Source: a virus
Virus record (IMG/VR): IMGVR_UViG_3300017751_000084
Coordinates: 1-34,678 of that record
Reading direction: 5' to 3' (one strand)
Length of the DNA: 34,678 bases
Shown: positions 3,901-20,568 of the stretch, one piece after another
Position numbering within the stretch: the first letter of the stretch is position 1
Layout: the number at the start of each line of letters is the position of its first letter
Position numbers and translations under genes: made by a program
Notes under the pieces: model-generated
Databases searched by the model: none
Told to the model about the DNA's origin: nothing
What the model saw: the letters and a program-made list of their open reading frames with translations, nothing else

Positions 3901-6900
3901 ACTAATACTAATTCAGCAATAGATACTGTTACAGGTTCTTCATTTGATTTCTTCCATAGACAATTTGACGGAACAGGTTCTTCGGTTGTTGATACACCAA
4001 AACCAGGTTCGTTAGGAACATTGGATTTCGAATATTATTTAAGTAAAATTGCTCTTGTCTTCTTAACTGAAAAAGGTGACTTTAGAGTAGTAGAAGGTAC
4101 TTCAGCAGAAATACCAGAAGAGCCAAAAGAAATAGATGGCGCTATGAAACTTGCGAAAATTAATATACCTGCATATACTTTTAGACCAACAGATGCAACA
4201 GTTAAAAGATTTAGAACACAAAGATTTACAATGAGAGATATTGGTAAACTACAACAACGTATTCAAAATTTAGAATACTATACTAATCTATCTCTATTAG
4301 AAAGAGACGCTGAATCTTTTGAAGTTACAGATGCAAACGGACTAAACAGATTTAAGTCTGGTTTTATTGTAGATAACTTTGCAGGTCATAGAGTTGGTGA
4401 TGTTAAAAACAAAGATTACAAAAATGCAATAGATCAACAACAAAAAGAATTACGTCCTAAATGTGTTATGAATGCAGCTTCTCTTGAGGAAACTGTATCA
4501 ACAGACGGACAAAGATCAGCATTAGGTTATCAAAAAACTGGTGACTTAATTACTCTTCCTTATACGGAAGTTACTAAAACAGAAAACCCATATGCAACAA
4601 GAACAGAAAAAGTTCAACCTGTTTATACTGCAAACTGGGTAGGTAATGTTATATTAACACCATCTGGTGACGAGTGGTTTGAAACAGAAACAGCACCTGA
4701 TTTAATTATCAATGTTGACGGAAACTATGATGCAGTATTAGCTGCAAATGAAAACAGATTAGGTACAATTTGGAATGCTTGGGAAACACAATGGTCTGGT
4801 GTTGTATCAACTAGTATTTCAAGAACAGAAACATCAAATAATGTTGTAATAACAAGAGCAATTCAAACTGTAAGATCAGATTTAAGAAGAACAGGTATTG
4901 AAACTGCATTAGTAGAACAAATTGATGAAGAGTCACAGGGAACAAGAGTTATCTCTAGAGCATTAATACCATGGTCTAGACCAAGAAATGTAGAGTTCAC
5001 AGGATCAGCATTTTTCCCTAATACTAAAGTCTATGTATATTTTGATGGTGTAGATATGAAACAATATGTTACACCACAAACTACAGAATTTACTGAAGAC
5101 GGTGCAACACCTGTTGAAGGTGGACAACTAGTAACTTCAGCAAATGGTTCTGTAAATGGAACAATGAGAATACCAGAATATTCAGCGCCAGGACAAGAAA
5201 CAAATCCAAAATTTAAAACTGGTGAATTAGAATTTAAGATAACATCTAGTGCTCAAAATTTAATTGAACCCCTACCTAGAACAGTTGGTACAGTAACTTA
5301 CTTATCAAAAGGTATTTTAGAAACTGAACAAGAAACAATTATTGCAACTAGAAATGCTACAATTGTACAAAATTCGGTTGATCAAACCACAACTAGATTA
5401 GATACATCTTCTAGAATTATTAGTCGTGAACGTAATAATGAAGAACGTGATCGTGGCGGCGGAAACAATGACCCACTTGCACAAACATTTATTGTAGATG
5501 AAGACGGTGGATGTTTCATTACTTCTATTGATTTATATGTAGAAACAAAAGATACAGTATTACCAATGTGGGTTGAAATTAGAAATGTTATTAACGGATA
5601 CCCTGGTGCTAAAATTTTACCATTTGGTAGAAAACTATTACAATCGTCTGAGGTTAATATTTCTGCTGATGCTTCTGTTGCAACAACATTTACATTTGAC
5701 TCACCAATTTATTTAAAAGAAGGTGTTGAGTATTGTGTAGTTGTTAGATCACATTCTTTAGATTACAAAGTTTGGATTTCAAGAATGGGTGAAACAGATG
5801 TTGATGGTTTAAGAGTTGTATCTCAACAACCTCATTTAGGTGTATTGTTTAAATCACAAAACAATAGAACATGGACAGCAGTACAATCAGAGGATTTAAA
5901 ATTTACTTTGAAAAGAGCAGAATTTAATACATCAGCTGCAGGTGATGTTACTTTACAAAATTTACCTATTGGAATAACAATTACAAATGAGTTAGGCGAA
6001 ACTGTATATGGTAAACTACTAAAACCAAATTCTTTAATAATGACAAATAGTTCAACTGTATTAAAAGTTAAACATATAGATCACGGTATGTATCAAACAT
6101 CTAATAATGTTAGAATTACAGGCGTGTCTTCGGATATTGCTACAACACTTAAAACTAGTATTGGTGCAGATGCAACTTCATTAGAGCTTACATCAGCAAG
6201 TAATTTCCCAACAGGAAGTATTACAATAAAAATTAATAATGAAATTATTACTGGTTCACTATCTGGTACAACATTATCATCTTTAACAAGAGGTGTAGGT
6301 GGTTCAACTGCAGCTAGTCACACTGCTTCTGATAAACTAGACTTATATCAAATTTTAGGAACACCATTAACAGAAATTAATAAAATTCATAATGCAATTG
6401 CAAACATTGGTATTGATAGTTACACAATCACATTATCAACTGCTCCAACAATTAGTGGTGGTTCAACAACTGCTGAAGTTGGTGGAATTGGTATATATGC
6501 TTCTGAAAATTATAGATACGAAGTTGGTAAAACATTAATTGGTAATATGGAATTACCAAACACATCTATTACTACAACACTTAGAAATACAACAGGTAGA
6601 TCACCAAGTGGTACTGAATCATCATTTGTAACTTCTACACTTGCAAATGCAGTTAAAATTCCTTTTAACGAAAATCATAAATTTGAAGTGTCAAACATAG
6701 TTGCCTCAGATGTAAATGAAACAAATGAATTAGCAGGTGCTAAATCATTATTCATTCCTATTAAATTAGGAAGTACTAATACAAACATATCACCTGTATT
6801 AGATTTAGATAGATCAACTTTTGTGGCAGTAGGAAATAGAATTAATAATATTGATAGTTCTTCAGATGTTTTCCCAACAACTGATTACAAAGATTCACTA

Positions 6901-7299
6901 CAACCAGAAGGTGATCAAAACGCATTTATTTACATAACTAAAAAAGTTGCATTAGAAAATTCTGCAACTGCATTGAAAGTTATTTTCTCAGGTCATAAAC
7001 CACAAAGTGCTGAAATTAAAGTTTTATTTAAAATTTTAAGATCAGATGACGCTTCAGATTTTGACGAATTAGGTTATGAATTTTTTAACACAACAGGTGA
7101 CCCCGATATTGCAACAGGTGCTTCTTTGGATGATCAAGATTTTCAAGAATATGTATTTACTGCTGGAGTTACCGATGATGGTATCGGAGTACCATTACCA
7201 GAATTTATTCAATTTGCAATTAAAATAGTAGGACAAGGAACAGACGCAACTCAAATACCTAGAATTAAAGACTTTAGAGCAATTGCGTTGGCAACATAA
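928..7299 (+). CDS. Giant DUF4815-type baseplate/fibre-associated structural protein
   Basis: A 2123-residue virion protein. The first ~60 residues (YYDDF, NFHRVLFRPGFAVQAREL, LQSILQNQIERFG) are the signature start of DUF4815 proteins of marine T4-like phages, which sit directly after gene 8 where T4 has genes 9-12. The body is almost all Thr/Ser/Gly-rich beta sequence. Repeated small modules of the type GE-I-G-x-SGA-x-G-V occur near 1240, 2440, 2500, 3400 and 3540. A likely beta-sandwich begins near residue 1514 (DPLAQTFIVDEDGGCF). A module ending LTRGVGGSTAASHTASDKL near residue 1790, typical of phage tail proteins, lies in the last fifth. It probably lies at the baseplate periphery and anchors fibres, from position and composition. 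No enzyme motif was seen. Family assignment is firm, exact role inferred. Confidence 0.8.
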   Translation: MAQKTDLNVAPYYDDFKEDKNFHRVLFRPGFAVQARELTQLQSILQNQIERFGNHIFQEGTLVIPGGISVNNQYGSVQLSTAFAGETIDVTQFYDALNPVTIVGATSGVRAKVVGFKAATATTQPLLYVQYVSSGTDLETSTFANSENLFADKIITHTTVYEANAQSVTTHTSANQTGTAVTAGNGVYYVRGTFVQMSEQTLVLSDTSNTASARIGFTLNESLITPEIDESLTDNATGSSNFAAKGAHRLKIELVLTSLELSSTNDDNFVEIARVKNGRLESQARPTEYSVLGDTLARRTFDESGDYTVRPFQLDMRESITNRHKDVDFRGVYSTGATTDDGNTASSDKLVLSLSPGKAYVKGYEIEKSGVTFKDINKARDFETVNAGSVNAELGNFVKVTNMFGQPDVTSISGETTPYKTIALFDDVIQTRGSASGTQIGVARSRTIEYASGTAGNTDAVYNLYLFDIRPFTYLTLSDNPSATLTANHANGGIQVKGVTSGATGFVFGALTSGTTAVLTNVSGTFIVGEKIEASDSSETDSIVENSSNADLTISNIVTHKFSETRSVFMDDADSGQDFTADIVLERTSTGADGQLVMDGSDASSTDANDNIVLEEDNSTTLALESEQIGKLVSAEKNIAIYRLSKRIIKTLLTATNNGASDTQLTIRKQFIGTTNSAGAVSFTAGANETFLSFTDKDYTVSVLTAGTGSAAQGDIIDIDGKISGTGSSTITITDNTKFGNAAKVKLTATILKTNITQRIKTTNLSKQVKVSGGTTGAFGTRPTDEVISLGRADVFRVGAIFDSEDTSTDAQIPTINLTSIQGTFVRGETITGASSGSIGRVVNPTTPLTYYLQNGVGSSNFVANEIVTGSHSGATATISSVTDGSKIITGNYTLDTGQRDNFYDISRLNLKPGFSKPRGRLLVVFDFFSHSTGSFFSVDSYSDQAGQMEYDNIPTYSATRVDPDEPEPTGEFNLTDCLDFRPTAENITGATNTNSAIDTVTGSSFDFFHRQFDGTGSSVVDTPKPGSLGTLDFEYYLSKIALVFLTEKGDFRVVEGTSAEIPEEPKEIDGAMKLAKINIPAYTFRPTDATVKRFRTQRFTMRDIGKLQQRIQNLEYYTNLSLLERDAESFEVTDANGLNRFKSGFIVDNFAGHRVGDVKNKDYKNAIDQQQKELRPKCVMNAASLEETVSTDGQRSALGYQKTGDLITLPYTEVTKTENPYATRTEKVQPVYTANWVGNVILTPSGDEWFETETAPDLIINVDGNYDAVLAANENRLGTIWNAWETQWSGVVSTSISRTETSNNVVITRAIQTVRSDLRRTGIETALVEQIDEESQGTRVISRALIPWSRPRNVEFTGSAFFPNTKVYVYFDGVDMKQYVTPQTTEFTEDGATPVEGGQLVTSANGSVNGTMRIPEYSAPGQETNPKFKTGELEFKITSSAQNLIEPLPRTVGTVTYLSKGILETEQETIIATRNATIVQNSVDQTTTRLDTSSRIISRERNNEERDRGGGNNDPLAQTFIVDEDGGCFITSIDLYVETKDTVLPMWVEIRNVINGYPGAKILPFGRKLLQSSEVNISADASVATTFTFDSPIYLKEGVEYCVVVRSHSLDYKVWISRMGETDVDGLRVVSQQPHLGVLFKSQNNRTWTAVQSEDLKFTLKRAEFNTSAAGDVTLQNLPIGITITNELGETVYGKLLKPNSLIMTNSSTVLKVKHIDHGMYQTSNNVRITGVSSDIATTLKTSIGADATSLELTSASNFPTGSITIKINNEIITGSLSGTTLSSLTRGVGGSTAASHTASDKLDLYQILGTPLTEINKIHNAIANIGIDSYTITLSTAPTISGGSTTAEVGGIGIYASENYRYEVGKTLIGNMELPNTSITTTLRNTTGRSPSGTESSFVTSTLANAVKIPFNENHKFEVSNIVASDVNETNELAGAKSLFIPIKLGSTNTNISPVLDLDRSTFVAVGNRINNIDSSSDVFPTTDYKDSLQPEGDQNAFIYITKKVALENSATALKVIFSGHKPQSAEIKVLFKILRSDDASDFDELGYEFFNTTGDPDIATGASLDDQDFQEYVFTAGVTDDGIGVPLPEFIQFAIKIVGQGTDATQIPRIKDFRAIALAT

Positions 7300-7535: not shown

Positions 7536-8061
7536 ATCGTCACAGGTAACAAATGCTGGAACAATTGAACAACTAAGACAAGAGTTTAATAATCTTGTTA
7601 CAGATGTTAGCGGACTAGAGGCAGGTCAATTAAACTTTGATACCATTGCAGTAACATCATTGTCAGTAGGAGATATTTCAATCTCTGGTGATTTCAATGT
7701 TACTACACTAACACCATCATCACTAACAGTAAAAGGTGATAGAATAGAATTTGAGGGAACAGGAGCAGATGATGCTTTTGAGACAACTTTAATTATAACA
7801 AATCCAACTGCCGACAGATCAATTACATTTAAAGATCAGTCTGGTATAGTCGCATACACAGGTGACTTAGGATTTACAAACTCAACTGTAACAACACACC
7901 CTGCAGCTGCAGGTGATGTTGATCTTGCGGGTGGGGAAACACCATTTGACTTAGGGGCGACAGATGCATTCGGAATTGCGTTATCGTCTAATCTATATGA
8001 TATGAATGAACCAAAAGGCCTGACAACTACTGTAGAAATAGGGACAGGTACAGGTATATAA
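7525..8061 (+). CDS. Fibre-like structural protein, 178 aa
   Basis: A small Thr/Ser/Gly-rich protein without Cys. The first ~35 residues are helical and polar (TIEQLRQEFNNLVTDVSGLE), then short beta repeats follow (TSLSVGDISISGDFNVTTL), the pattern of trimeric phage fibre or fibre-tip proteins. ITFKDQSGIVAYTGDLG near residues 100-117 is a motif common in phage fibre proteins. It overlaps the preceding small gene by 11 bases and is followed by a late promoter at 8066. It is likely a fibre or baseplate accessory; receptor binding is possible but not shown. Confidence 0.65.
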   Translation: MAIRSSQVTNAGTIEQLRQEFNNLVTDVSGLEAGQLNFDTIAVTSLSVGDISISGDFNVTTLTPSSLTVKGDRIEFEGTGADDAFETTLIITNPTADRSITFKDQSGIVAYTGDLGFTNSTVTTHPAAAGDVDLAGGETPFDLGATDAFGIALSSNLYDMNEPKGLTTTVEIGTGTGI

Positions 8062-8065
8062 GGAT

Positions 8066-8073
8066 TATAAATA
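8066..8073 (+). promoter_or_regulatory. T4-type late promoter upstream of the fibre gene
   Basis: Exact TATAAATA octamer in the 44-base gap before the fibre gene at 8106. Expected transcription start is about 8080, leaving a leader of about 25 bases with an AGGAG ribosome site at 8092-8096. In T4 this octamer is recognised by the phage late sigma factor gp55 with gp33 and the sliding clamp. Confidence 0.75.
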
Positions 8074-8105
8074 AGAATATAACAATACAATAGGAGTATA
8101 AGAAA

Positions 8106-9173
8106 ATGCCAACAGTACTACAATTTAGAAGAGGTACTACATCGCAGAATAACTCATTCACAGGCGCGCTAGGTGAAATTACTTACGATACAGATAAAGA
8201 CGTATTGCGAGTACATGACGGTAGTACGGCTGGTGGATTTTCAATGGTCTCTGCATCAAGTACCGACACATTTACAAACAAAACTTTAACAAGTCCAAAT
8301 ATCACTACAGCGATTCTTCCAACTAGCGCAGACGGAGCAACGATAGGTAGTGCAACAAAAGAATTTTCAGACTTGTTTTTAGCTGATGCTGGAACAATCC
8401 AATTAGGTAACGATCAAGACGTTGTTATAACACACGTTGCAGATTCAGGTTTTACAATTAAAAATACAAATACTGCTGATAACAGTACAGCACTAATCAC
8501 TATTCAAACTGGTGAGACTGATATTCAAGCAGATGATATTATTGGACAAATAGATTTCCAAGCACCAGATGAATCTCAAGGAACAGACGCAGTTTTAGTT
8601 GCGGCAGGTTTACTTGCTAAATCAGAAGGTGAGTTCAGTACATCAAATAACGCAACATCATTGATTTTCAAAACAGGTGCTTCAGAAACAGCAACTGAAA
8701 AAGTTGCAGTAAGATCAAATGGTGATGTAAGAATATTAACAGATGCAGCGACACTTGCAATGGGTGCTGATCAAGATGTAACAATTAAACATGTTGCAGA
8801 CTCTGGTCTAACACTTAAAAATAGTGCAACTGCTGATGACAAACCATTTACACTTACTATTCAGACAGGTGAAACAGATATTGCGGCAGATGACGTTCTT
8901 GGTGCAATTCAATTCCAAGCACCAGATGAAGGTACAGGTACAGATGCGATTACAGTTGCAGCTGCTATTAAAGCAGTATCGGAAGGTGACTTCTCTGCTT
9001 CTAGTAACGCAACTAAGATTTCATTCTTATGTGGAAATTCAGAAGCTGCTACAGAAAAAGCAAAAATCGTAGGTTCAACTGGTAAGTTTCACGCAACACC
9101 AGATAGTATTTTATTGATTAAAAACTCTTCTGGTTCTACTTTGAAAACTGTAAACGGACACGCAGCCATTTAA
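8106..9173 (+). CDS. Tail fibre with Mtd_N-like N-terminus and duplicated body
   Basis: A 355-residue fibre protein. The start, VLQFRRGTTSQNNSFTGALG followed by a DTDKDVLRVHDG segment, is the short N-terminal domain seen in Mtd-type and many cyanophage fibre proteins. A TFTNKTLTSPNI linker (residues ~55-66), typical of phage fibres, follows. The rest is two copies of a ~110-residue unit: DQDV at 103 and 222, and TIQTGETDI at 132 and 251, a constant shift of 119 residues. The C-terminus is short and carries no recognisable peptidase or adhesin domain. A late promoter (8066) and AGGAG site precede it. It is probably a trimeric fibre near the baseplate; receptor and ligand are unknown. Confidence 0.75.
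   Translation: MPTVLQFRRGTTSQNNSFTGALGEITYDTDKDVLRVHDGSTAGGFSMVSASSTDTFTNKTLTSPNITTAILPTSADGATIGSATKEFSDLFLADAGTIQLGNDQDVVITHVADSGFTIKNTNTADNSTALITIQTGETDIQADDIIGQIDFQAPDESQGTDAVLVAAGLLAKSEGEFSTSNNATSLIFKTGASETATEKVAVRSNGDVRILTDAATLAMGADQDVTIKHVADSGLTLKNSATADDKPFTLTIQTGETDIAADDVLGAIQFQAPDEGTGTDAITVAAAIKAVSEGDFSASSNATKISFLCGNSEAATEKAKIVGSTGKFHATPDSILLIKNSSGSTLKTVNGHAAI
8394..9080 (+). repeat. Tandem internal duplication in the fibre gene
   Basis: Two diverged units of about 340 bases (about 8394-8735 and 8751-9080), offset by 357 bases (119 codons). They share DQDV-I-HVADSG, TIQTGETDI-ADD, FQAPDE, SEG-FS-S-NAT and ATEK blocks in the same order and spacing. The copies have diverged at both nucleotide and protein level, so the duplication is not recent. 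Confidence 0.85.
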
Positions 9174-9214
9174 TGGTTGACAATTGGTTAAAAATATAGT
9201 ATAAAGGAAAGATA

Positions 9215-10168
9215 ATGACAGCAAGAACACCGTTATATTACACTTCAGATAGTTTAGTTGAAATGACTTCAGCAGAACTTGTCGAATGGCAAAGACAAGC
9301 GATCTTCCAATATGCTTCAGATGAATCTGTAGTATTGACAGTAAATGCTGGTAATGGTAATATCGGTACAACGATGAATGACACTAGATTCAGATCATCG
9401 GCTGCAACACAACAAAACTCATCACACGCTACACCAGGTGCTCTTGATACAGTGACAACTGCTTTCAATCACATTGTACAAACAGTAACTAACCCAAGTG
9501 TAACAGGTGATACAGATAATGTGTTGTTTCCTGTTTATTGGGATAACTCTTCAGGTTCAATTTTGGCAATGTCTGAAACAGATTTTGCTGATACATTTAT
9601 TAAACCTGCTTTAGTTTTAATGCAAGCTTCTTCAGAAGCAACTGCTGGAGATTATGGTGGAACATACACAATTTCTACAGGAACATCTTTATCAAATCAC
9701 ACTAACGTTTCTACAACTGCTGTATTTGTAGATACAATTGCTGTACCTGGTTCTTATAGTTCAGGTCAGATTGGTTCATCAGGTAGTTACCAAGATCATA
9801 ACTCAACAGTAAATAGTTATTATTTACATGTTAGAGACGGAGTTGATAACACACCTGCAAGAACACCTTTACATGCTGATACTTCAGGTAACTTAAATGA
9901 ATATGCAGCTGCAACATTTAAAGGTTATCTTAAAGAATATATGAAAGACTTAGCGGCTTCAGATGATGTTGCCTCTGGTCATAATATTAGATTTAATATT
10001 AATGGTTCTGGTAACTCTAGAGGAACGGCAATGGTTGATTCTAAGTTAGATGGTTCAGGCACTGACACAAACAGATTTGTAGGTGGTGATGATTATAGAT
10101 CACAAAAATTCCCTAGTGGTTCTTCATCTACTGTTAGTACATACAATTTTAAAATGAATTTGGAATAA
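9215..10168 (+). CDS. Conserved-looking virion structural protein, 317 aa (unknown)
   Basis: Begins TARTPLYYTSDSLVEMTSAE; an AAGGAAA ribosome site lies just upstream. The protein is rich in Ser, Thr, Gly and Asn, with no transmembrane segment or catalytic motif. A helical patch sits at about residues 229-245 (AATFKGYLKEYMKDLA). It lies between the fibre gene and gene 10193, the zone that holds virion structural proteins in T4-like marine phages, and its composition fits that. It may be a fibre or baseplate component. No T4 homologue is recognised. Confidence 0.65.
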   Translation: MTARTPLYYTSDSLVEMTSAELVEWQRQAIFQYASDESVVLTVNAGNGNIGTTMNDTRFRSSAATQQNSSHATPGALDTVTTAFNHIVQTVTNPSVTGDTDNVLFPVYWDNSSGSILAMSETDFADTFIKPALVLMQASSEATAGDYGGTYTISTGTSLSNHTNVSTTAVFVDTIAVPGSYSSGQIGSSGSYQDHNSTVNSYYLHVRDGVDNTPARTPLHADTSGNLNEYAAATFKGYLKEYMKDLAASDDVASGHNIRFNINGSGNSRGTAMVDSKLDGSGTDTNRFVGGDDYRSQKFPSGSSSTVSTYNFKMNLE

Positions 10169-10192
10169 TAATTAAATTATTAGGAGTATATT

Positions 10193-10870
10193 ATGAAAAA
10201 TGTTAAGACCCAAGATGGCGTCAGCCATGAAGTTACTACACCCGTAGTCAAAACACCACAAAAAAATATTGCTAATTATGCTAATGAAGATTCAACTATT
10301 TCAAATCTTACAAAAGAAACATTTGTTAGAGCAGAGTTTGTTGACAATGATAGAACAGTAGTAAAAATTTATTGGAATAACCCAGAAGGTCATGGTAACC
10401 CAGACGCAGAGTTAGATCACTTCACAGTTAATTTAGAAGATAAAACCTCTGATGGTAAAGAGCATCCTTACATTACAAAACTTTTTGATTTAACCGATCT
10501 TGATGAAATGCATGAGAATACTTGGAAAAGAATTAAACAAGAGCAAAAGATGTGGAGAGAATTTGCTATTAAGATTGCAAAAGATGACGGTTTAATTATT
10601 GACCCTATTGCATATTACGATAGTGATACACAATCAGCAAAATTAGATACTAAGTTTTTTGGACAAACATTACAATTATTGTTTGAAGATTTTGATGTAG
10701 AAAAACAAAAGGAAGATTTGTTTATTATTAAATTAGCTGCATTTGAATTAGATATGGTTAAGTCATCTAACGATAGAGAAAGAAAAACAAAACTTAGAAA
10801 AGCAAAAACACCTCTTGAAGTATTAACTATTTTACTTGAAATGAAAGAGTTATCAGAAATACCTGTTTAA
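10193..10870 (+). CDS. Unknown acidic protein, 225 aa, end of the baseplate/fibre block
   Basis: Start is fixed by the ribosome site in TAGGAGTATATTATG (10181-10195). Unlike its neighbours it is not Thr/Ser-rich: it is charged and largely helical in the second half, with a Lys/Arg-rich stretch near the C-terminus (SSNDRERKTKLRKAK) and a Leu-rich tail. Residues 45-75 (FVRAEFVDNDRTVVKIYWNN) look like a short beta unit. It may be an assembly factor or chaperone rather than a fibre, from composition only. Its stop overlaps by 4 bases the stop of the convergent glycosyltransferase gene. Confidence 0.6.
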   Translation: MKNVKTQDGVSHEVTTPVVKTPQKNIANYANEDSTISNLTKETFVRAEFVDNDRTVVKIYWNNPEGHGNPDAELDHFTVNLEDKTSDGKEHPYITKLFDLTDLDEMHENTWKRIKQEQKMWREFAIKIAKDDGLIIDPIAYYDSDTQSAKLDTKFFGQTLQLLFEDFDVEKQKEDLFIIKLAAFELDMVKSSNDRERKTKLRKAKTPLEVLTILLEMKELSEIPV

Positions 10871-11688
10871 GAATCTAATATATCAAATACTTTATCAAAA
10901 TCTTTTGTAATAACATGTAAGAGATAAGAATATTTTATCTTTGATTTTACTGTATCTGTTAATATTAATTCATGCCAATGTGGGGGAAGATTAACAGTTG
11001 GTATGTTATATCTATCTAACATAAAAGAAATAATAATTTCATTATTATAAAAATATCTATCATCAATATGTTTAATACTGTCAATTAATTTTTTACAATG
11101 ATCTAATCTTTCAGAAAACTTTAATTGATCTCTTGATATTGCACTACCACCAAATGTACCTGTGTTTGCAATAACATCATTCCATTTAGTTACACCATCT
11201 GATTTCATCATGTCTTTTTTTTGTTGACCTTTTATTAACCAATGATATTGATCTAATTCTTCTTTTTGTTTTTCAAAATCTTTTGATTTAGTTCTAATAT
11301 GAAAATCAGTAATTGACTCAGTTTTAGTTTTAAGTCCTATGCGTTCATTAAAATCGTCAACAGGCAACAAATGGGTAACCACTTTATCAAAGTCAAACTT
11401 GGAAAATATATTAATGTTGGTGTTAGGAATAATATCAAAGTCAAGATATAATACTCTGTCATAGTCATCGCAAAACTTTTCCCATTGTTGAAGTTTATAC
11501 ACATTTAAATTATCATAGTCAGTAGAGTCTGGTGTTAGTAATTTAAAATCTGCATTACACAGATCAGCATAATTTTTTAAACCATTTCTTAATCTAGTAA
11601 AATGTTTTTTAAATTGTTCTTGATTGTGTGTTCTTTTTTTTGTAGTGTCAGTAACACTAGTGTAAATGCTAAATATTAGATCGTTCAT
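10867..11688 (-). CDS. GT-A glycosyltransferase-like protein A
   Basis: A 273-residue protein from the ATG at 11688, chosen because GGCGAG lies just upstream; the longer frame back to 11727 adds 13 residues lying inside the neighbour. VLYLDFDIIPNTN (about residues 79-91) carries a D-x-D metal/nucleotide-sugar motif (Asp83, Asp85) as in GT-A fold, GT8-like transferases. NTGTFGG and PPHWHEL further on resemble acceptor-side motifs. It probably transfers a sugar from a nucleotide donor to a host or phage glycan, but the substrate is unknown. It is paralogous to the gene upstream (11669-12556), overlapping it by 20 bases. The pair is on the - strand against the structural operon, with no clean late octamer, so it may be expressed at another time. 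Confidence 0.65.
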   Translation of the reverse strand: MNDLIFSIYTSVTDTTKKRTHNQEQFKKHFTRLRNGLKNYADLCNADFKLLTPDSTDYDNLNVYKLQQWEKFCDDYDRVLYLDFDIIPNTNINIFSKFDFDKVVTHLLPVDDFNERIGLKTKTESITDFHIRTKSKDFEKQKEELDQYHWLIKGQQKKDMMKSDGVTKWNDVIANTGTFGGSAISRDQLKFSERLDHCKKLIDSIKHIDDRYFYNNEIIISFMLDRYNIPTVNLPPHWHELILTDTVKSKIKYSYLLHVITKDFDKVFDILDS

Positions 11689-12556
11689 ATGCTCGCCAAC
11701 AATAATCAAATTCTTTATTAATTGCATGAATTATTTTTGTATCTTTAGGAATATGTAATTCCGTATCATAAAAGTAATGCCACTTTCTATCTAACCACTG
11801 AACAGGTACTTCATTCGATACAATTTTATATGAGAATATAGTTTCGTTATCAAATCCAAATGTATCTGTTATATTTTTAGGATACATACAATCTGATTTA
11901 TATTCGTCTGATCTTAGATAATGCATTATATCATAAGTTGTTTTAATGTCATGAAAAAAACCTAGTCTTTCTAAATGTTCTTTTGTTGCACCAATAATTC
12001 CTGTATTAACAACATTACATTGAGGGTCTTGATCTGTTTCTTCTAACATTGCCATTGCATTAAAATATTTTGCAGAGGGTGATCTGATTGTTCCTTTAAT
12101 ATCAAAAAGTGTTTGACCACTTTGTCGTATCTCTTTATTATTATGCATGATCGCTAGACCTGCTCTTAAATCCCATACATCAAAGAAAGATTCATTTGTC
12201 ATTGGAATAGTATCAAAATCTAAGTACAACACTTCATCGTATTTGTTTGCAAGTTCATAAAGTAAATGTATCTTATATTCATTAATCATATTGTAAGTTG
12301 TAATAAAAGGAAAGTTTTGTTTATACAAATTTTGCATATGTTCAAATTGTGAATCATATTCGAATAGTTTAAAATCTGCACCAATAGACTCTGCATATTT
12401 TCTTTTACATTCAACAAGTTTGTCATAATGTAATTTCAATTTATTTTTTGTATTGATATTTGTAGGGGTTTGACCCTCTTTGATTATATCTTTATCAAAG
12501 AAATCTAACTCTTTTTTAGGTATATCGACATATATGGTGTAAATAACTCTTGACAT
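11669..12556 (-). CDS. GT-A glycosyltransferase-like protein B
   Basis: A 295-residue paralog of its downstream neighbour. Shared landmarks: I-Y-TIY start, GADFKLFEYDS (residues ~59-69), and EVLYLDFDTIPMTNESFF (108-125) with the D-x-D pair Asp113/Asp115. NVVNTGIIGA and VQWLDRKWHYF follow, as in the paralog's NTGTFGG and PPHWHEL. The start ATG has GGAAC about 6 bases upstream. No signal peptide or membrane segment, so it would act in the cytoplasm. It is the first gene of the - strand pair and is divergent from the epimerase at 12618 across a 61-base gap. It may supply a sugar to a cell-surface or virion glycan; target unknown. Confidence 0.65.
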   Translation of the reverse strand: MSRVIYTIYVDIPKKELDFFDKDIIKEGQTPTNINTKNKLKLHYDKLVECKRKYAESIGADFKLFEYDSQFEHMQNLYKQNFPFITTYNMINEYKIHLLYELANKYDEVLYLDFDTIPMTNESFFDVWDLRAGLAIMHNNKEIRQSGQTLFDIKGTIRSPSAKYFNAMAMLEETDQDPQCNVVNTGIIGATKEHLERLGFFHDIKTTYDIMHYLRSDEYKSDCMYPKNITDTFGFDNETIFSYKIVSNEVPVQWLDRKWHYFYDTELHIPKDTKIIHAINKEFDYCWRAYERSNI

Positions 12557-12575
12557 CTAAGTTCCATTCTGGTAT

Positions 12576-12583
12576 TATAAATA
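12576..12583 (+). promoter_or_regulatory. T4-type late promoter for the epimerase / gene 13 unit
   Basis: Exact TATAAATA in the divergent gap between the glycosyltransferase pair and the epimerase. Predicted start near 12590, then AGGATGG (12604-12610) as ribosome site 7 bases from the ATG at 12618. It probably also serves genes 13-15. The opposite strand of this gap has no matching octamer. Confidence 0.7.
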
Positions 12584-12617
12584 TGTTATATAGTATAATA
12601 TTTAGGATGGTTTGTCA

Positions 12618-13439
12618 ATGGTTATTTTAATTACAGGTGATAAAGGATTTATTGGTTCATATTTAAAGCAATCACTAATTAGTGATGGTCATATTGTTTT
12701 AGGATATGATTTTAAAGATGATTACGATGTTGGTACTGTCGGTGAAGACGTTATTAAAAAGGTTAATAAAGTTGTTCACTTAGCTGCATACGCAGATGTT
12801 CGGGCAAGTATGAAAGACCCCAACTTATGGTATGAAAATAATGTAATGAAAACTAATCATCTTTTTAGATTATGTAAGAAGTTTAATACACAATGTATAT
12901 ATGCTTCATCGTCATGCGTTAAAGAATGGTGGAAGTCCCCATACGGTACTTCTAAAAAAGTAATGGAAGACATGGCAAATGTTTATGGAAGATTTGTTGG
13001 TTTAAGATTTTCTAATGTTTATGGTGATGGTGCAAGAGACTCAATGTTACTTCCATTATTACTAAAAGGAAAACTTAAATATTCTACTAATCATACTAGA
13101 GACTTTGTACATGTTAATGATGTTGTAGATGCAATTAAGTTATTTTTACACATGGACAATTTTGATAAACTTGATAATTTAATTTATAATGTAGGCACAG
13201 GAAAAGGAAGAAAAGTATCTGATCTTGTAAAACAATATGGATATGATGTGCCAATCAAGGATGGTGACCCATCTGAAATGGAAGATAACACGGCAGATAA
13301 CGCTAATCTCTTAAAATTAGGGTGGTCGCCAAATGAGGATTTAGATAAATACTTAAAAGGAAAATTAAATGGCAACACCAACTACAAAGAGTACATTCAA
13401 AGATTACTGCCTAAGAAACTTAGGATTTGGAGTAATTGA
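12618..13439 (+). CDS. NAD-dependent epimerase/dehydratase (extended SDR)
   Basis: A 273-residue sugar-nucleotide epimerase/dehydratase-like protein. The Rossmann nucleotide motif TGDKGFIG is at residues 6-13, the Ser triad at ~97-99 (YASSS) and the catalytic Tyr-x-x-x-Lys at Tyr109/Lys113 (YGTSK). RDFVHVNDVVDA is the usual extended-SDR motif. The ATG at 12618 is preferred to a TTG at 12612 because AGGATGG is correctly spaced. Members convert nucleotide sugars (for example UDP-Glc to UDP-Gal), so it may feed the adjacent glycosyltransferases; the exact sugar is not predictable. Oddity: it is short for the family and its last 23 codons overlap gene 13 by 71 bases in another frame. Confidence 0.8.
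   Translation: MVILITGDKGFIGSYLKQSLISDGHIVLGYDFKDDYDVGTVGEDVIKKVNKVVHLAAYADVRASMKDPNLWYENNVMKTNHLFRLCKKFNTQCIYASSSCVKEWWKSPYGTSKKVMEDMANVYGRFVGLRFSNVYGDGARDSMLLPLLLKGKLKYSTNHTRDFVHVNDVVDAIKLFLHMDNFDKLDNLIYNVGTGKGRKVSDLVKQYGYDVPIKDGDPSEMEDNTADNANLLKLGWSPNEDLDKYLKGKLNGNTNYKEYIQRLLPKKLRIWSN
13344..13351 (+). promoter_or_regulatory. Possible late promoter before gene 13 (one mismatch)
   Basis: GATAAATA followed by CTT, one base from the late octamer, 17 bases before the gene 13 ATG and inside the epimerase coding region. A transcript start at about 13358 would leave a very short leader. It is weaker than the exact octamers elsewhere and may be chance. Confidence 0.25.
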
Positions 13440-14178
13440 CATCAATGTATCAGACGATCAAGTAGATGATCGTATTGATGAAGCATTACAATACTTTTCA
13501 ACATATCATTTTGATCAAGTTGAAAAAATGTATTTAAAATACGAAATTACAGCAGACGATATAACTAGAGCAAGAGGTAACACAACAACTTCAGCAACAG
13601 ACATTGTTGATACTTCGGTTACTGCATCATTTAAAGAAGGTAATAATTTTATACCTATGCCAAGTACTATTCTTTCAGTAGTACAAGTTTTTCCAATGGA
13701 CAACGCAGCGTCTTCTAATATGTTTGATATTAAATATCAAATGAGACTAAACGATCTTTACGATTTTTCATCCACATCAATGATACATTATGAAATGACA
13801 ATGCAACATCTAGATTATATTTCACATATTCTAGTAGGACAAACACCTCTAAGATTTTCTGAACATCAATCAAGATTATATCTTGACATGGATTGGGAAG
13901 CAGTTTCAGCAGGTGAATTTTTAATTATTGAATGTTATAGAAAACTAGACCCAACATCTTATACTGATATTTACAACAATATACATTTAAAAAGATATGC
14001 GTCTGCATTAATCAAAAAACAATGGGGTTCCAACTTAAACAAATTTCAAAATGTTCAATTACTTGGTGGGGTCACAATGAATGGTGATCAGATTTACCAA
14101 CAAGCAACAGACGAAATTAGAGAGATAGAACAATTTATTGATAATCATCAATACCCAGACATGATAATTAAAGGATAA
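13369..14178 (+). CDS. 13: Neck protein gp13
   Basis: A 269-residue protein starting MATPTTKSTFKDYCLRNLG then INVSDDQVDDRIDEALQYF, the characteristic start of gp13 of marine T4-like phages. In T4, gp13 joins gp14 at the head-tail neck, completing the head after packaging so a tail can attach. AAAGGAAA lies about 5 bases before the ATG. The gene is shorter than T4 gp13 (309 aa), as usual in marine relatives. Its first 71 bases overlap the epimerase gene, so the start of gene 13 is coded in two frames. It is followed 2 bases later by gene 14. Confidence 0.88.
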   Translation: MATPTTKSTFKDYCLRNLGFGVIDINVSDDQVDDRIDEALQYFSTYHFDQVEKMYLKYEITADDITRARGNTTTSATDIVDTSVTASFKEGNNFIPMPSTILSVVQVFPMDNAASSNMFDIKYQMRLNDLYDFSSTSMIHYEMTMQHLDYISHILVGQTPLRFSEHQSRLYLDMDWEAVSAGEFLIIECYRKLDPTSYTDIYNNIHLKRYASALIKKQWGSNLNKFQNVQLLGGVTMNGDQIYQQATDEIREIEQFIDNHQYPDMIIKG

Positions 14179-14180
14179 CC

Positions 14181-15194
14181 ATGGCTGTTAACAGTGCGTT
14201 TAAATCATCAGGTCTTGCCGCATCGACAAGTGAACAGGATTTATACTCTAATTTAATTAGAGAGTCAATTCAAATTCACGGTCACGATGTTAATTATATG
14301 GATAGAACATTGCAAGCCAGAGACGATATTTTTGGCGAAGACTCTCTTTCAAAGTTTGAAAAACAACAAACTATTGAAATGTATGTAGAGGATGCAGAAG
14401 GTGGTTATCAAGGGGAAAAAGAATTAATACAACAATTCGGTTTAGAAAATAGAAACGAAATTACATTTGTTGTACATAGAAAAAGATTTGATGATGTTGC
14501 TCATCAACTAGATTTAGAAAGTGGAACAGACACTACTGAAGGTTCAATCTTATTAGAGTCAGGTACACTTGCACAACATCGTTTCGGAATACAATCAGCA
14601 ACTTTTGATTCAGCATATTTAAGAAACGAAGACGCAACTTTAGGAACATATAACAATAGACCTAAAGAAGGCGATTTAGTATTTCATCCTGTACTAAATA
14701 AACTATTCGAAGTTTCATTTGTAGATCATGATGAACCATTTCATCAATTAGATAATAACCCTGTTTACAAATTAAGATGTAAACAATTCGAATACAGTTC
14801 AGAGGAATTGAATACGGGTGTTACAAATATTGATGCGATAGAAGATGCGTTAACTCAAGATAGTTTAAATCATCAATTCACTCTTGAGGCAACAACAGCA
14901 TACAACGAGAGTATTGCTCTTGAGTTCTTTACAAATGGTACTCAAACAGATTCGTTATTAGACGAAGATGGTAATACAATCGTCCACGAAGATGATAGTT
15001 CTTCAATCGGAACAAACATACTTCTTGAAAATCCTGCTGACTCAGGTGACGATAGCTACTTATTAACGGAAGACTATATAGTAGGAGATATGTCAACAGA
15101 CAAGACAGCTCAGAATGAGTTGTTTGATGAACAAGATGATACAATATTAGACTTCACTGAAAGAAACCCATTTGGTGATGCTGGAGAATTATAA
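14181..15194 (+). CDS. 14: Neck protein gp14
   Basis: A 337-residue head-completion protein that works with gp13. The segment SEQDLYSNLIRESIQIHGHD then YMDRTLQARDDIFGED (residues ~16-53) and the EMYVEDAEGGYQGE block are gp14 hallmarks. It is longer than T4 gp14 (256 aa) because of Thr/Ser/Asp/Leu-rich insertions at about residues 115-125 (TEGSILLESGTL) and about 250-310 (LLDEDGNTIVHEDD, ILLENPADSGDDSYLL), which repeat an E/D-x-G-x-L/I pattern. Similar acidic inserts are known in cyanophage gp14. Its stop shares TAATG with the gene 15 start (1-base overlap). Confidence 0.88.
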   Translation: MAVNSAFKSSGLAASTSEQDLYSNLIRESIQIHGHDVNYMDRTLQARDDIFGEDSLSKFEKQQTIEMYVEDAEGGYQGEKELIQQFGLENRNEITFVVHRKRFDDVAHQLDLESGTDTTEGSILLESGTLAQHRFGIQSATFDSAYLRNEDATLGTYNNRPKEGDLVFHPVLNKLFEVSFVDHDEPFHQLDNNPVYKLRCKQFEYSSEELNTGVTNIDAIEDALTQDSLNHQFTLEATTAYNESIALEFFTNGTQTDSLLDEDGNTIVHEDDSSSIGTNILLENPADSGDDSYLLTEDYIVGDMSTDKTAQNELFDEQDDTILDFTERNPFGDAGEL

Positions 15195-16006
15195 TGCTAG
15201 GACAACAATTTTATCACGAAACAATAAGACGAATGGTCGTGACATTCGGTACGATATTTAATAATATTAATCTTGTTAGAAAAGATAACAACGGAAATAT
15301 TATACAAAAGATGAAGGTGCCATTAGCATATGGCCCAAGACAAAAATTTTTAACTCGTTTAGATCAAGATGCTAATTTAGATTCTAAAGTTGCAATTACA
15401 TTGCCACGATTAGGATTTGAAATACAAAATTTAGCATACGACCCTCAAAGAAAATTAAACAGAGTACAAAAGTTTAAGAAAAGTAAAAATTCTACAACTA
15501 AACAAGTTGACAGTCAATACATGCCTGTTCCATATAATTTGGATTTTGAATTATACGCAATGGCAAAACAATCAGATGATGCTTTGCAAATGATTGAACA
15601 AATTGTTCCATACTTCCAACCAGACTATACAGTAACAATTAATGATATGTCTGATATGGGTATTAAAAGGGATGTACCAATTATTCTAAACTCTATTAAT
15701 TACGAAGATAATTATAGAGGGGATTTTAACGAGAGAAGAGCAATTATCTATACACTAAACTTCACATGTAAGTTTTACTTGTATGGTCCTGTTACCTCAG
15801 ATAAAGTTATTAAACAAGTTCAAGTTGATCAATATTCAGACTTGCCAGTTAATACACCAGCAAGAGAACAAAGATATACAGTTACACCAACACCATCAAC
15901 AGCAACAATTTCAGATGTTGATAATGATGATTTTGGATTTAACGAACAGGTATCTTTCTTTGAAGATGCAAAAACATTTGACCCAAAGACAGGTGATGAT
16001 ACTTAA
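15194..16006 (+). CDS. 15: Tail sheath stabiliser / tail completion protein gp15
   Basis: A 270-residue protein close to the T4 length (272). MLGQQFYHETIRRMVVTFGT, VPLAYGPRQKFLTRL and ITLPRLGFEIQNLAYD (to about residue 85) are classic gp15 blocks. In T4, gp15 forms the hexameric ring that caps the sheath-tube assembly and contacts the neck. The tail end is Thr/Pro-rich and acidic, ending near DPKTGDD. It is translated directly after gene 14 and is followed after 25 bases by the first radical-SAM gene. Confidence 0.92.
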   Translation: MLGQQFYHETIRRMVVTFGTIFNNINLVRKDNNGNIIQKMKVPLAYGPRQKFLTRLDQDANLDSKVAITLPRLGFEIQNLAYDPQRKLNRVQKFKKSKNSTTKQVDSQYMPVPYNLDFELYAMAKQSDDALQMIEQIVPYFQPDYTVTINDMSDMGIKRDVPIILNSINYEDNYRGDFNERRAIIYTLNFTCKFYLYGPVTSDKVIKQVQVDQYSDLPVNTPAREQRYTVTPTPSTATISDVDNDDFGFNEQVSFFEDAKTFDPKTGDDT

Positions 16007-16031
16007 TTGATAATTTGATATTTGTTATATT

Positions 16032-16901
16032 ATGGAAAATTGCAGTAAAGAAATAAACTTAGATATTACATACAAATGTACATTACAATGTGCAGGTTGC
16101 AATAGACAAGATCATGATTATACAATTGTTAAAAATGAAATAACAGTTGAAGAGTTTCAAAAAGTTCTTGATAAGTTTGATAAGATTATGTTTTGTGGTG
16201 GACAATCAGACCCAATCTTTCATACAAATTTTATAACGTTTCTAAAGATGTGCTTTGACCAAAATAAAAAAGCAGTCGTACACACAGCCGCAAGTCATAA
16301 AAAGAAAGAATGGTATAATCAAGCGTTTGATGCAAATCCTAAAGCAGAATGGAAATTTGGTATTGACGGACTACCAGAAGATAGTCATAAGTATCGTAAA
16401 AATCAAGACGGCAAATATTTATTTGAAAGAATGTTAGATGCTCATAAAAAAGGATTAGATGTAGAGTGGCAATATATTATTTTTGATTACAACGAGGATA
16501 CTCAATTAGATGCTTACAAATTAGCAGTTGATAATGGAATACGATTACAATTATTAGAAAGTAATACAGATGTTGATGGTAATAATATTAAATTAGAATA
16601 TGATTATAGTAGTCAAGTAAAACCTAGATGTCTAAATGAAACAACACCAAAGTATTATGAAGCTGGAGGCAACATATTACCCTGTTGTTGGTTAGACTCA
16701 CACAAAGACGAAGTGAAAGAGTTATTTGACGATAGTTTGAAACTAAATAAAAATACAGTTGATGAAATAATCAACTCTGATATATGGAAAAAATTTAATG
16801 ATAAGATTAAATCTGACCCGTATGAAATATGCAGAAAAAGGTGTGGTATAAATCACAACCAACAAGATGCAAAAATGAAAAGGACTTTTTTAAATGTCTA
16901 A
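16032..16901 (+). CDS. Radical SAM protein A (SPASM-like)
   Basis: A 289-residue protein. Cys16, Cys20 and Cys23 (KCTLQCAGC) form the CxxxCxxC motif that binds the [4Fe-4S] cluster used to make the 5'-deoxyadenosyl radical. FCGGQSDPIFH (54-64) and FGIDGLP (109-115) resemble SAM-binding strands. A C-terminal cysteine set (C200, CC at 218-219, C267, C271) fits a SPASM/twitch-type auxiliary cluster. Such enzymes modify peptides, sugars or other substrates; the substrate here is unknown. It is a paralog of the gene at 17303-18244. Its end overlaps gene 16 by 8 bases, placing it within the packaging operon. No ribosome site is obvious before the ATG. Confidence 0.8.
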   Translation: MENCSKEINLDITYKCTLQCAGCNRQDHDYTIVKNEITVEEFQKVLDKFDKIMFCGGQSDPIFHTNFITFLKMCFDQNKKAVVHTAASHKKKEWYNQAFDANPKAEWKFGIDGLPEDSHKYRKNQDGKYLFERMLDAHKKGLDVEWQYIIFDYNEDTQLDAYKLAVDNGIRLQLLESNTDVDGNNIKLEYDYSSQVKPRCLNETTPKYYEAGGNILPCCWLDSHKDEVKELFDDSLKLNKNTVDEIINSDIWKKFNDKIKSDPYEICRKRCGINHNQQDAKMKRTFLNV

Positions 16902-17310
16902 AGAAGATGTAGATAAAATTATTGAAGATGCATTAGGTGTAATGCAAGAACCTAAAGAGGTTGTTGTAAAAGAAAAAGCTCCACCTGTTGTAATACCAAA
17001 AGGTGATGATGTTGATGTTGACTACGAATATCAAAGACAAAACTTTTACACATTAATTGATAAAGGTCAAGATGCAGTTGATGGTATACTTGAGCTTGCA
17101 AAAGAATCAGATCATCCTAGAGCATATGAAGTTGCTGGTAATATGATAAAAAATATTGCTGATGTAACTGAAAAGTTAGTACAACTACAAGAGAAGATGA
17201 AAAAATTAAAAGAGGTACCTGGTAAGGCACCTAAAAATGTTACTAACGCTTTGTTTGTAGGGTCAACTGCTGAGTTACAGAAAATGTTAAAAAAGAAAGA
17301 TAATGATTGA
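16894..17310 (+). CDS. 16: Terminase small subunit gp16
   Basis: A 138-residue protein (T4 gp16 is 164). The order matches T4: an acidic N-terminus, DYEYQRQNFYTLIDKGQDAV, a central helix pair ELAKESDHPRAYEVAG then NMIKNIADVTEKLVQLQEKM, and the C-terminal NVTNALFVGSTAELQKML (T4 NATVFMGSPTEL). gp16 forms a ring that regulates the large terminase and recognises DNA for packaging. It overlaps the radical-SAM gene before (8 bases) and the one after (8 bases), an unusual sandwich between genes 15 and 17. Identity is firm. Confidence 0.9.
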   Translation: MSKEDVDKIIEDALGVMQEPKEVVVKEKAPPVVIPKGDDVDVDYEYQRQNFYTLIDKGQDAVDGILELAKESDHPRAYEVAGNMIKNIADVTEKLVQLQEKMKKLKEVPGKAPKNVTNALFVGSTAELQKMLKKKDND

Positions 17311-18244
17311 TTATAAAAATAATGGATTTAAAAATAAAGATTGCGATATAGACCTTACAAATAAATGTACACTTAAATGTTCTATGTGTGCTAGACAAAA
17401 ATTTGAAAATCCTAAATTAATACCTGGTGGTGATATATCAATAGAAAGTTTTCAGAAAATGCTAGATTATTATGATAGCATTTATTTGTGTGGTACTTAT
17501 GGTGACCCAATATTCAATCCTCATTTACATACATTCTTAAAGATGTGTTATGAACAAAATAAATTTGTTCAGATACATACAGCCGCATCACAAAAACCTA
17601 TGCATTGGTATGAGAAAGCATTTGAGGCAAATCCTAATTGTGTATGGGTATTTGGAATAGATGGTCTTCCATATCAAAGTTTTGCGTATCGTGAAAATCA
17701 AGATGGTGAATATCTATTTGACGTTATGTTAAAAGCAAGAAACATGAATATCAATGTAATATGGCAGTATCTAGTATTTAAATATAACGAAGATAAAATT
17801 GATTTTGCAAAAAGATTAGCAGATAATCACGGAATAAAAATTGAAATACACCATACTGCAAGAGTTAATGAATTTCTTGCACCCACAGTTGAAATAGTAA
17901 AAGAAGTAGAAGAAGAAAAAGTATTTGTACCAAAGTGTTTAAAAGACCCACAACAAAGAGCACCCTACTTAGCAGCCACAGGACAAATGTATCCATGTTG
18001 TTGGTTAGATGAAGAACAGGTTCACGACCCCGAATATAAAGCGTTACAAAATGAACAACTAAATATTAGACATAACAAAGTAGAAGATATTATTAATAGT
18101 GAAACATGGCAAACATTTTACGATAACTTATATACTGATAAATGTCCTAGTTATTGTAAAAAGAAATGTACAACAACATTAAGAAACCCAACTAGAATAG
18201 TAAAGGGTAGAATTGATGGTAAGACAATGGAAGTAGAAAAATAA
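17303..18244 (+). CDS. Radical SAM protein B (SPASM-like)
   Basis: A 313-residue paralog of the radical-SAM gene at 16032. Cys22, Cys26, Cys29 (KCTLKCSMC) give the CxxxCxxC cluster motif. LCGTYGDPIFNPH and FGIDGLPYQS repeat the paralog's SAM-binding blocks, and the C-terminus has C212, CC at 232-233, C281, C285 and C289 for auxiliary clusters. Long stretches such as IHTAAS and DANPK/EANPN with WQY-I/V-F are shared. An extra acidic loop (IVKEVEEEKVF, about 198-208) is absent from protein A. It ends 1 base before gene 17. It may form a heteromer with A or act on a related substrate; neither is known. Confidence 0.8.
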   Translation: MIDYKNNGFKNKDCDIDLTNKCTLKCSMCARQKFENPKLIPGGDISIESFQKMLDYYDSIYLCGTYGDPIFNPHLHTFLKMCYEQNKFVQIHTAASQKPMHWYEKAFEANPNCVWVFGIDGLPYQSFAYRENQDGEYLFDVMLKARNMNINVIWQYLVFKYNEDKIDFAKRLADNHGIKIEIHHTARVNEFLAPTVEIVKEVEEEKVFVPKCLKDPQQRAPYLAATGQMYPCCWLDEEQVHDPEYKALQNEQLNIRHNKVEDIINSETWQTFYDNLYTDKCPSYCKKKCTTTLRNPTRIVKGRIDGKTMEVEK

Positions 18245-19886: not shown

Positions 19887-20568
19887 ACATGTATATGTAG
19901 ATTATTCTGCAGGTGCATTTGGAGATTGGTTAAGATACTTTATAGCAGAGCATGATGGGTTTGAAAAGTTTGAAGAGTATGGTAGAGAAGGTGTGTATAT
20001 TAACTATGTTGGTCACATAAACTTTACTACACCACATTATCCTATAAGACCACTTAAACAAATACCATTTACACATATTAAAACTGGTGATGATCTTATA
20101 GAAGAGTTTAAAAAACAAGCACCAAATTACGATAAGTACAGACAAGTATGGAAGTCTGCCGATGCACCAAAACTAATTGGTCAAGGACACACACTTGTTG
20201 GTTCTGATTGGACTAAAATAGAAGATATAGACTTTCAGTATTACGATATTGTTAGAAAAAATTTAGATCATCTTATAATTTTTGTTTCATTAAGTCCATT
20301 CTCAAAATATGAGAAACCATATATGATGAGATATAGAGAAGATGCTAAAAAGAAAAAAACAGACTTAGAAAAAGAACATAAAAAAACATGGTTGTATAAT
20401 TATGTAAATAAAGAATATCCTAAACATGAATTAAATTTTGAATTGGAGATAAATGAATTGTTTGAATATGATGAAGAATTATATACAAAACTAACAGAGT
20501 TTTTAAATGTAAAACCACTTCCTAATTGGAAAGATTATATTGATGAATTTAATGATAGGATACTTTAA
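19870..20568 (+). CDS. Unknown protein, member A of a tandem paralog pair
   Basis: A 232-residue protein. The start VYVDYSAGAFGDWLRYFIAE is nearly shared with the next gene (VLVDYTAGTFGDWLRYFIAE), and both end in WKDYI-x-x-F-D/N-x-x-IL. A central LSPFSKYEKPYM matches LSPFSKYKDLYI. The Gly-x-Phe-Gly element after a strand resembles a nucleotide-binding loop but lacks a canonical P-loop Lys/Ser-Thr. The C-terminal half is charged and helical. It overlaps terL by 17 bases. It could be a transferase-like protein, by analogy with P-loop-like proteins common in marine phages; function unknown. Confidence 0.6.
   Translation: MRQIGKHVYVDYSAGAFGDWLRYFIAEHDGFEKFEEYGREGVYINYVGHINFTTPHYPIRPLKQIPFTHIKTGDDLIEEFKKQAPNYDKYRQVWKSADAPKLIGQGHTLVGSDWTKIEDIDFQYYDIVRKNLDHLIIFVSLSPFSKYEKPYMMRYREDAKKKKTDLEKEHKKTWLYNYVNKEYPKHELNFELEINELFEYDEELYTKLTEFLNVKPLPNWKDYIDEFNDRIL

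Follow-up and report, generated by a model that had tools for sequence, protein, structure and literature searches.

What do two glycosyltransferases and a sugar-nucleotide enzyme, lodged between the fiber and neck genes of a marine T4-like phage, act upon, and why are the glycosyltransferases encoded on the strand opposite to the structural operon? These questions are raised by the IMG/VR virus record IMGVR_UViG_3300017751_000084, the whole 34.7 kb of which (34,678 nucleotides, hereafter the window) was analyzed. Between its fiber genes and gp13, the gene order is p225 (plus strand), the glycosyltransferase genes GTb and GTa (both minus strand), and a gene of the extended short-chain dehydrogenase/reductase type (SDR, plus strand). 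We tentatively read these genes as a compact glycosylation cassette within a host recognition cluster (HRC), in which the glycosyltransferases (GTs), fed by the SDR, would decorate a Ser/Thr-rich protein of the fiber module; we regard this reading as quite possible, though short of probable.

The initial annotation described two GT-A-like paralogs with D-x-D motifs, and this description held. Profile-profile comparison of GTa (11669–12556, minus strand) with GTb (10867–11688, minus strand) gave a probability of 99.9 and an E value of 7.8e-33, and the two are paralogs. The DxD motif, which formed no part of the patterns used to find GTa and GTb homologues, was invariant in 63 of 63 distinct GTa proteins and in 32 of 32 distinct GTb proteins. 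It corresponds to D113/D115 in GTa and, when GTb is numbered from the ATG at 11688, to D83/D85 in GTb, in agreement with the residues originally named. The longest open reading frame (ORF) of GTb starts at 11727, which is probably too early because the ATG at 11688 aligns with the N-termini of GTa and of relatives. A C-terminal histidine (His277 in GTa) was likewise kept in all 63 GTa proteins and in 31 of the 32 GTb proteins. The C-terminal motif of GT8 enzymes is HxxGxxKPW; it is not kept in the window, where the corresponding stretches read HAINKEF and HVITKDF and the histidine alone is retained. Against the curated cut-off of 24.3 bits for the Pfam GT8 family (PF01501), GTa scored barely over (24.8) and GTb under (19.3), and matches at an E value of 0.01 or better were obtained for seven of 13 GTa members and five of 11 GTb members. 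We class both proteins as GT8-like GT-A enzymes, not as GT8 proper.

Sequence searches of solved structures returned no convincing relative, whether they started from the individual GTs or from the two profiles, and fold comparison alone helped. The AlphaFold2 model of GTb (predicted local distance difference test, pLDDT, 82) adopts a GT-A fold, and GT-A enzymes alone were recognized by name in the top rows of the fold search. Its best match was 2p6w (Z 12.5, root-mean-square deviation 3.7 over 183 residues), one of the structures of the PBCV-1 capsid glycosyltransferase (2p6w, 2p72, 2p73). The PBCV-1 enzyme ranked first for the GTa model as well as for that of GTb (Z 9.8 and 12.5; 13–16% identity; ~200 residues); it comes from an algal virus, and the match gives no evidence for a common acceptor. 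The GTa model was weaker (pLDDT 62, best Z 9.8) but concordant with GT-A. LgtC (1g9r, 1ss9), a GT8 enzyme and by its PDB name a lipopolysaccharide (LPS) galactosyltransferase, shares the GT-A fold, the DxD motif, and the conserved C-terminal histidine with the window proteins. However, GTb falls under the Pfam cut-off, neither protein has a KPW-type ending, and the likeness of LgtC to the GTb model (Z 10.3) was no closer than that of many other GT-A enzymes. The fold ranking carries no information on the acceptor. Taken as predictions, GTa and GTb are GT-A enzymes whose metal and donor motifs are intact.

The third gene (12618–13439, plus strand; alternative ORF start TTG at 12612) matched PF01370 with an E value of 3.9e-28 (98.9 bits versus a cut-off of 20.9) and phrog_540, annotated as nucleotide-sugar epimerase, with 6.5e-44, as had been expected of an SDR sugar-nucleotide enzyme. 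Residues G7, G10, and G13 of the GxxGxxG motif, S97–S99 (SSS), and Y109 and K113 (YxxxK) were kept in 39 of 39 sequences, so the product is a predicted sugar-nucleotide enzyme with its nucleotide-binding site and catalytic residues intact. The NCBIfam equivalog matches listed for it were all far under their cut-offs (GalE, 72.5 of 262 bits; heptose epimerase, 65 of 275 bits). The nucleotide-sugar epimerase of cyanophage P-TIM68 (phrog_540) resembles it in identity (~40%) and similar short length; however, that gene lies in a heptose-type cluster with a phosphoheptose isomerase, a heptose kinase/adenylyltransferase, and a GT, and not beside neck genes. The GT pair is opposite to the structural operon, as first reported; the SDR, however, is on the structural strand, and the 3' end of its ORF runs 71 nucleotides (13369–13439) into gp13, a neck or head-tail adaptor gene (13369–14178, plus strand; phrog_211, E 1.5e-43). 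In relatives this overlap measures 32, 47, 59, or 71 nucleotides, the last being seen in 54 of 103 locus views, a total that counts duplicates.

GTa and the SDR diverge from a gap of ~55 nucleotides, and a single two-way promoter element (12550–12618, both strands) of the form TTGACA ... TGTCAA appears to serve both. The predicted promoter towards SDR-gp13 (TTGACA-17-TATTAT; 12550–12578, plus strand) overlaps GTa codons 1–3 with its -35 box, while that towards GTa-GTb (TTGACA-17-TACTAT; 12590–12618, minus strand) overlaps the first base of the SDR ATG with its -35 box. The -10 boxes are separate (12573–12578 and 12595–12590, ~11 bp apart), and the predicted transcription starts, at ~12585 on the plus strand and ~12583 on the minus strand, lie ~2 bp apart; therefore, two polymerases would exclude one another. 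A single promoter node shared by the GT pair and the SDR-neck genes would also explain why the GT pair lies on the opposite strand. A T4-late-like TATAAATA, starting at 12576 on the plus strand, overlaps the plus-strand -10 box, so late expression is possible too; in some relatives TATAAATA occurs on the minus strand.

Counts of promoter-like sites in the window showed no excess over shuffles (89 versus 92 expected; 75 versus 74.5 expected), and ~0.5 chance occurrences of TTGACA ... TGTCAA at such spacing are expected per window, so the case for the promoter rests on its conservation in relatives. All 19 distinct junctions that had not been selected for the element (18 with an SDR and one, L067, with gp13) had TTGACA where GTa begins and TGTCAA at the far end. 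Among 16 distinct elements of 63–71 bp, which were chosen by their end hexamers and whose ends are therefore invariant by construction, -10-like hexamers lay 15–18 nucleotides inside on both strands and averaged 4.9 and 5.2 of 6 matches, versus 3.8 in shuffled interiors. A threshold of at least 10 of 12 matches on each strand was passed by 23 of 31 GTa junction rows, always partnered by the SDR or gp13 and some of them the same junction in two orientations, and by none of 15 other divergent junctions. The L067 element has a perfect TTGACA-17-TATAAT on both strands. GTa of the L012/L054 group now starts with TTG although TTGACA is still kept there, which weakens a reading of its conservation as purely that of a start codon, and TTGTCA immediately 5' of the SDR ATG is conserved although probably non-coding. 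No two-way element was found at the HTVC008M junction. To judge from its sequence geometry, the element resembles the bidirectional promoters of Escherichia coli (PMC12825309), which are likewise of sigma70 type, overlap on both strands, and exclude one another by geometry, but those share a -10 element, with starts commonly 10, 18, or 23 bp apart, in contrast to the separate -10 boxes and nearly coincident predicted starts of the window.

The order Mtd_N fiber, f317, p225, GTb, GTa, SDR, gp13, gp14, gp15 was kept in IMG/VR relatives down to ~50% SDR identity. Ratios of non-synonymous to synonymous polymorphism (pN/pS) were 0.23–0.52 for GTa, GTb, and the SDR, 0.27–0.36 for the genes of the fiber module, and 0.10–0.23 for gp13 and gp14. 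The conserved order and orientation and these ratios for the three genes argue that the cassette is more than a chance assembly. The question of whether it is present or variable among close relatives thus has a divided answer, as it is fixed within its own clade, while related lineages carry different sets of enzymes in its place. Some relatives, L030 among them, have a radical SAM/SPASM gene inserted between GTa and GTb. In another (L047), GTb is 93% identical to that of the window and GTa and the SDR are 82–83% identical; parts of the cassette therefore appear to be exchanged, in this case GTb alone and recently.

The cassette adjoins fiber genes, as initially noted. Upstream lie a fiber protein with an Mtd N-terminal domain (8106–9173, plus strand; PF18454, E 4.9e-13; phrog_9648 tail protein), f317 (9215–10168, plus strand), a fiber-module protein rich in Ser and Thr (25%) that is our candidate acceptor and is kept between the Mtd_N fiber and p225, and p225 (10193–10870, plus strand), recognized through conservation in relatives as the partner of f317. 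The f317 family averages 24% Ser+Thr versus 14–18% for gp13, gp14, and sheath. Among 50,697 phage records, GTa, f317, and p225 had one match each, in every case Pelagibacter phage Mosig (49%, 36.7%, and 30.8% identity, respectively). Mosig also has a homolog of the SDR (40% identity). Unlike these genes, the core genes are nearer to other phages: TerL identity was 69% to Melnitz (an OM43 phage), 68% to HTVC008M (a Pelagibacter phage), and 64% to Mosig, portal identity 71% to Melnitz versus 61% to Mosig, and gp13 identity 62% to HTVC008M versus 55% to Mosig. Furthermore, VrlC/vsp77 was in view at eight of the gp13-seeded loci, four of which had both GTa and f317-p225 and four neither. From such gene content we conclude that the GTs are linked to the f317-p225 fiber module.

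A scan of viral contigs with the GTa profile, of which the best 80 of 272 GTa-encoding places were kept, gave together with the earlier loci 62 GTa genes with distinct final 400 nucleotides, which are not independent samples. Three were two-domain fusions and 59 were unfused. The same-strand gene after unfused GTa was GTb in 27 loci, a second DxD family in 26, a radical SAM gene in five, and the contig edge in one, so that a second GT adjoins GTa in 53 of 59. GTa was antisense to the visible structural genes in all 46 loci that could be judged (13 others could not). Within the fetched flanks of the 59 loci, p225 was in view at 43 and f317 at 30; in every one of the 16 loci lacking p225 the flank stops at most 6 kb from GTa. 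The flanks also held an SDR (36 loci), carbamoyltransferase-like (29), methyltransferase-like (29), and DegT-like (15) genes, and radical SAM genes of any kind (49), with Pfam E values for representatives of 2.3e-70 (carbamoyltransferase) and 2.9e-77 (DegT).

Two large antisense GTa clusters (L239, 817–12809; L228, 1–12855) contain a carbamoyltransferase, a DegT aminotransferase (L228), QueC-like PP-loop proteins, radical SAM and methyltransferase-like genes, and the second DxD GT-like family; their content looks like a pathway to a heavily decorated sugar. That GTa is followed by GTb in the large clusters was considered and rejected, because the profile of the following gene places it in another family, with DxD conserved. 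Fused GTs have an f317-like gene nearby in L127 (229 bits) and a weak p225-like gene nearby in L129 (28 bits), in each case on the same strand, so antisense orientation of the GTs is not universal. We do not read the fusions as GTb+GTa, as each half scored best with the GTa profile, but as two domains of this family. When bacterial and archaeal genomes were scanned with the GTa profile, three loci were obtained in two metagenome bins; at two of these loci an f317-like gene or a weak p225-like gene is also present. The bins are titled Rhodobacteraceae and Lewinella (L127 and L129 in G001, L128 in G002) and encode a tail sheath stabilizer at eight and one places, respectively. We rejected these loci as host genes, since two of them have fiber-module-like genes, as noted, and both bins hold T4-type tail-sheath-stabilizer genes (nine places, all outside the GTa contigs), which suggests that phage contigs were binned together with bacterial ones. 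In HTVC008M (L252, 36403–39682) the position just before gp13 is taken by four 2-oxoglutarate-Fe(II) oxygenases and a ferrochelatase, clustered in antisense; this slot thus accepts antisense enzyme cassettes, the GT set being one of them.

How, then, might the cassette work? In the reading that we favor, GTa and GTb would work one after the other, each transferring a single sugar from a nucleotide-sugar donor, and the SDR would supply or remodel at least one of the donors. The likeliest acceptor would be a Ser/Thr-rich protein of the fiber module, either f317 or the Mtd_N fiber, modified in the cytoplasm before assembly, with the result that adsorption would be tuned or masked. The GT operon has a predicted host-type promoter of its own, which would allow its enzymes to be produced ahead of the late genes or independently of them. 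A joint pathway, with a fiber or capsid protein or host surface polysaccharide as its target, was already suggested in the initial annotation. It is plausible in view of the conserved co-localization, the GT-GT fusions, and the larger relatives with carbamoyltransferase and DegT sugar aminotransferase genes, with the SDR as a putative source of the GT donor. Several observations weigh against fiber decoration by SDR-fed GTs. L067 has the GT pair without an adjoining SDR. The eight gp13-seeded loci include near relatives (L054/L055 and L060/L061), and the linkage between the GTs and f317-p225 may be the common ancestry of a region. Two loci (L099, L102) carry f317 and a p225-like gene with no GTa in view, and the idea that p225 is restricted to GT-bearing loci was dropped because they contradict it. 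Finally, the GT promoter is separate from the structural genes, which also suits an early modification of the host surface.

On the one hand, that last point leads to the strongest competitor, in which host LPS/O-chain or some other envelope glycan would receive sugars from the SDR-supplied GTs during infection, so that superinfection is blocked or progeny are kept from sticking to debris. A host-surface role is what passages of PMC7029224 propose for pelagimyophage GT8 enzymes. It agrees with the GT8-like sequences, the fold likeness to LgtC, the separate host-type promoter, and the DegT, carbamoyltransferase, and SDR genes of the larger relatives, which we infer to resemble those that serve for decorated surface sugars. 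On the other hand, the LgtC likeness is not specific, and modification of the host does not by itself explain why the GTs are linked to one fiber module and not to phages generally. We slightly favor fiber decoration over host-glycan modification and consider the latter a serious contender that is nonetheless doubtful.

Three further alternatives appear less likely. The frequency of radical SAM genes around GTa, together with the radical SAM-SPASM genes that occur near the fused GTs and, in L030, separate GTa from GTb, could point to GTs that act with nearby enzymes of this type (16032–16901 and 17303–18244 in the window) on a phage-made peptide or small metabolite. However, these genes are widespread in these phages, most members of the clade lack the 377-aa gene, and no precursor peptide was seen, although none was sought; we find this improbable. 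Glycosylation of modified bases in phage DNA is known from T4-like phages, but T4-type DNA glucosyltransferases have a GT-B fold, while GTb is GT-A and the genes adjoin fibers, which makes such a role very unlikely here. That the cassette is a functionless, decaying remnant of the much larger clusters of its relatives would account for its small size, yet the catalytic residues are invariant, pN/pS is well under 1, and order and promoter are conserved, and we give this hardly any credence.

According to passages of PMC7029224, the pelagimyophage HRC lies between VrlC and gp14, has a mean length of 44.6 kb, is hypervariable, and mixes fiber genes with glycosyltransferases, among which GT8 is the commonest family, and with radical SAM cassettes. 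The window has fiber genes and sugar enzymes in the same location, between its VrlC-like gene (928–7299) and gp14 (14181–15194), and its locus is an HRC on that definition. This interval, which holds the Mtd_N fiber, the GTs, and the SDR, is however only ~6.9 kb long, and whereas the HRC is described as hypervariable and non-syntenic, the window type is fixed within its clade and variable between clades. GTs in this region have thus already been described for pelagimyophages, and the cassette is a variant. The same passages make no mention of an epimerase (0 occurrences), of a GT pair with an SDR, or of a two-way promoter. Likewise, a limited open literature that included PMC9004378 and PMC7892664 showed no account of a small cluster with fixed order, of a promoter of this two-way kind, of GT fusions, or of a link to f317-p225, and no paper on an epimerase in pelagimyophages was found in it. 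Mosig (EXVC030M, MT647606), which grows on Pelagibacter HTCC1062 and encodes its f317-like protein at 72535–73446, resembles the window in its antisense GTa and in an SDR on the structural strand; it differs in that GTa sits inside a 13-gene antisense cluster with gp13 ~30 kb away, and in that its match to GTb is weak (26%) and falls on the GTa homolog.

As to the phage itself, it is a T4-like marine myovirus related to pelagimyophages, and the window has a T4-type structural set (VrlC-like, gp13–gp15, terminase, sheath, portal, protease, and scaffold). Its host is probably SAR11- or OM43-like, given the TerL identities to Melnitz, HTVC008M, and Mosig. A megablast of positions 8000–16100 against phage records found no relative at the DNA level. 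Elsewhere in the window, two radical SAM/SPASM-like genes (16032–16901 and 17303–18244) stand either side of the small terminase gene, a pair that in relatives is missing, doubled, or swapped for others. Between terL and the sheath gene (19870–25448) the five proteins tested (232, 226, 479, 351, and 193 aa) had no PHROG match at an E value of 0.001, and the interval contains a perfect TTGACA-17-TATAAT (23174–23202).

The phages related to the window infect SAR11 and OM43, which are highly abundant marine bacteria. With only three enzymes in the cassette, a candidate fiber protein linked to it, and the corresponding module in Mosig, a relative in culture, the question of what the GTs target is directly testable, and the conserved two-way promoter offers a concrete regulatory element. 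More speculatively, and in our judgment rather unlikely, the shared element might be a switch in which a polymerase bound towards GTa-GTb excludes one bound towards SDR-gp13, the element thereby setting whether, or when, each is made; together with the f317-p225 linkage, this would amount to a self-regulated phage system for fiber glycosylation. If this were true, a single DNA element would decide between the glycosyltransferases and the SDR-neck operon in abundant ocean phages.

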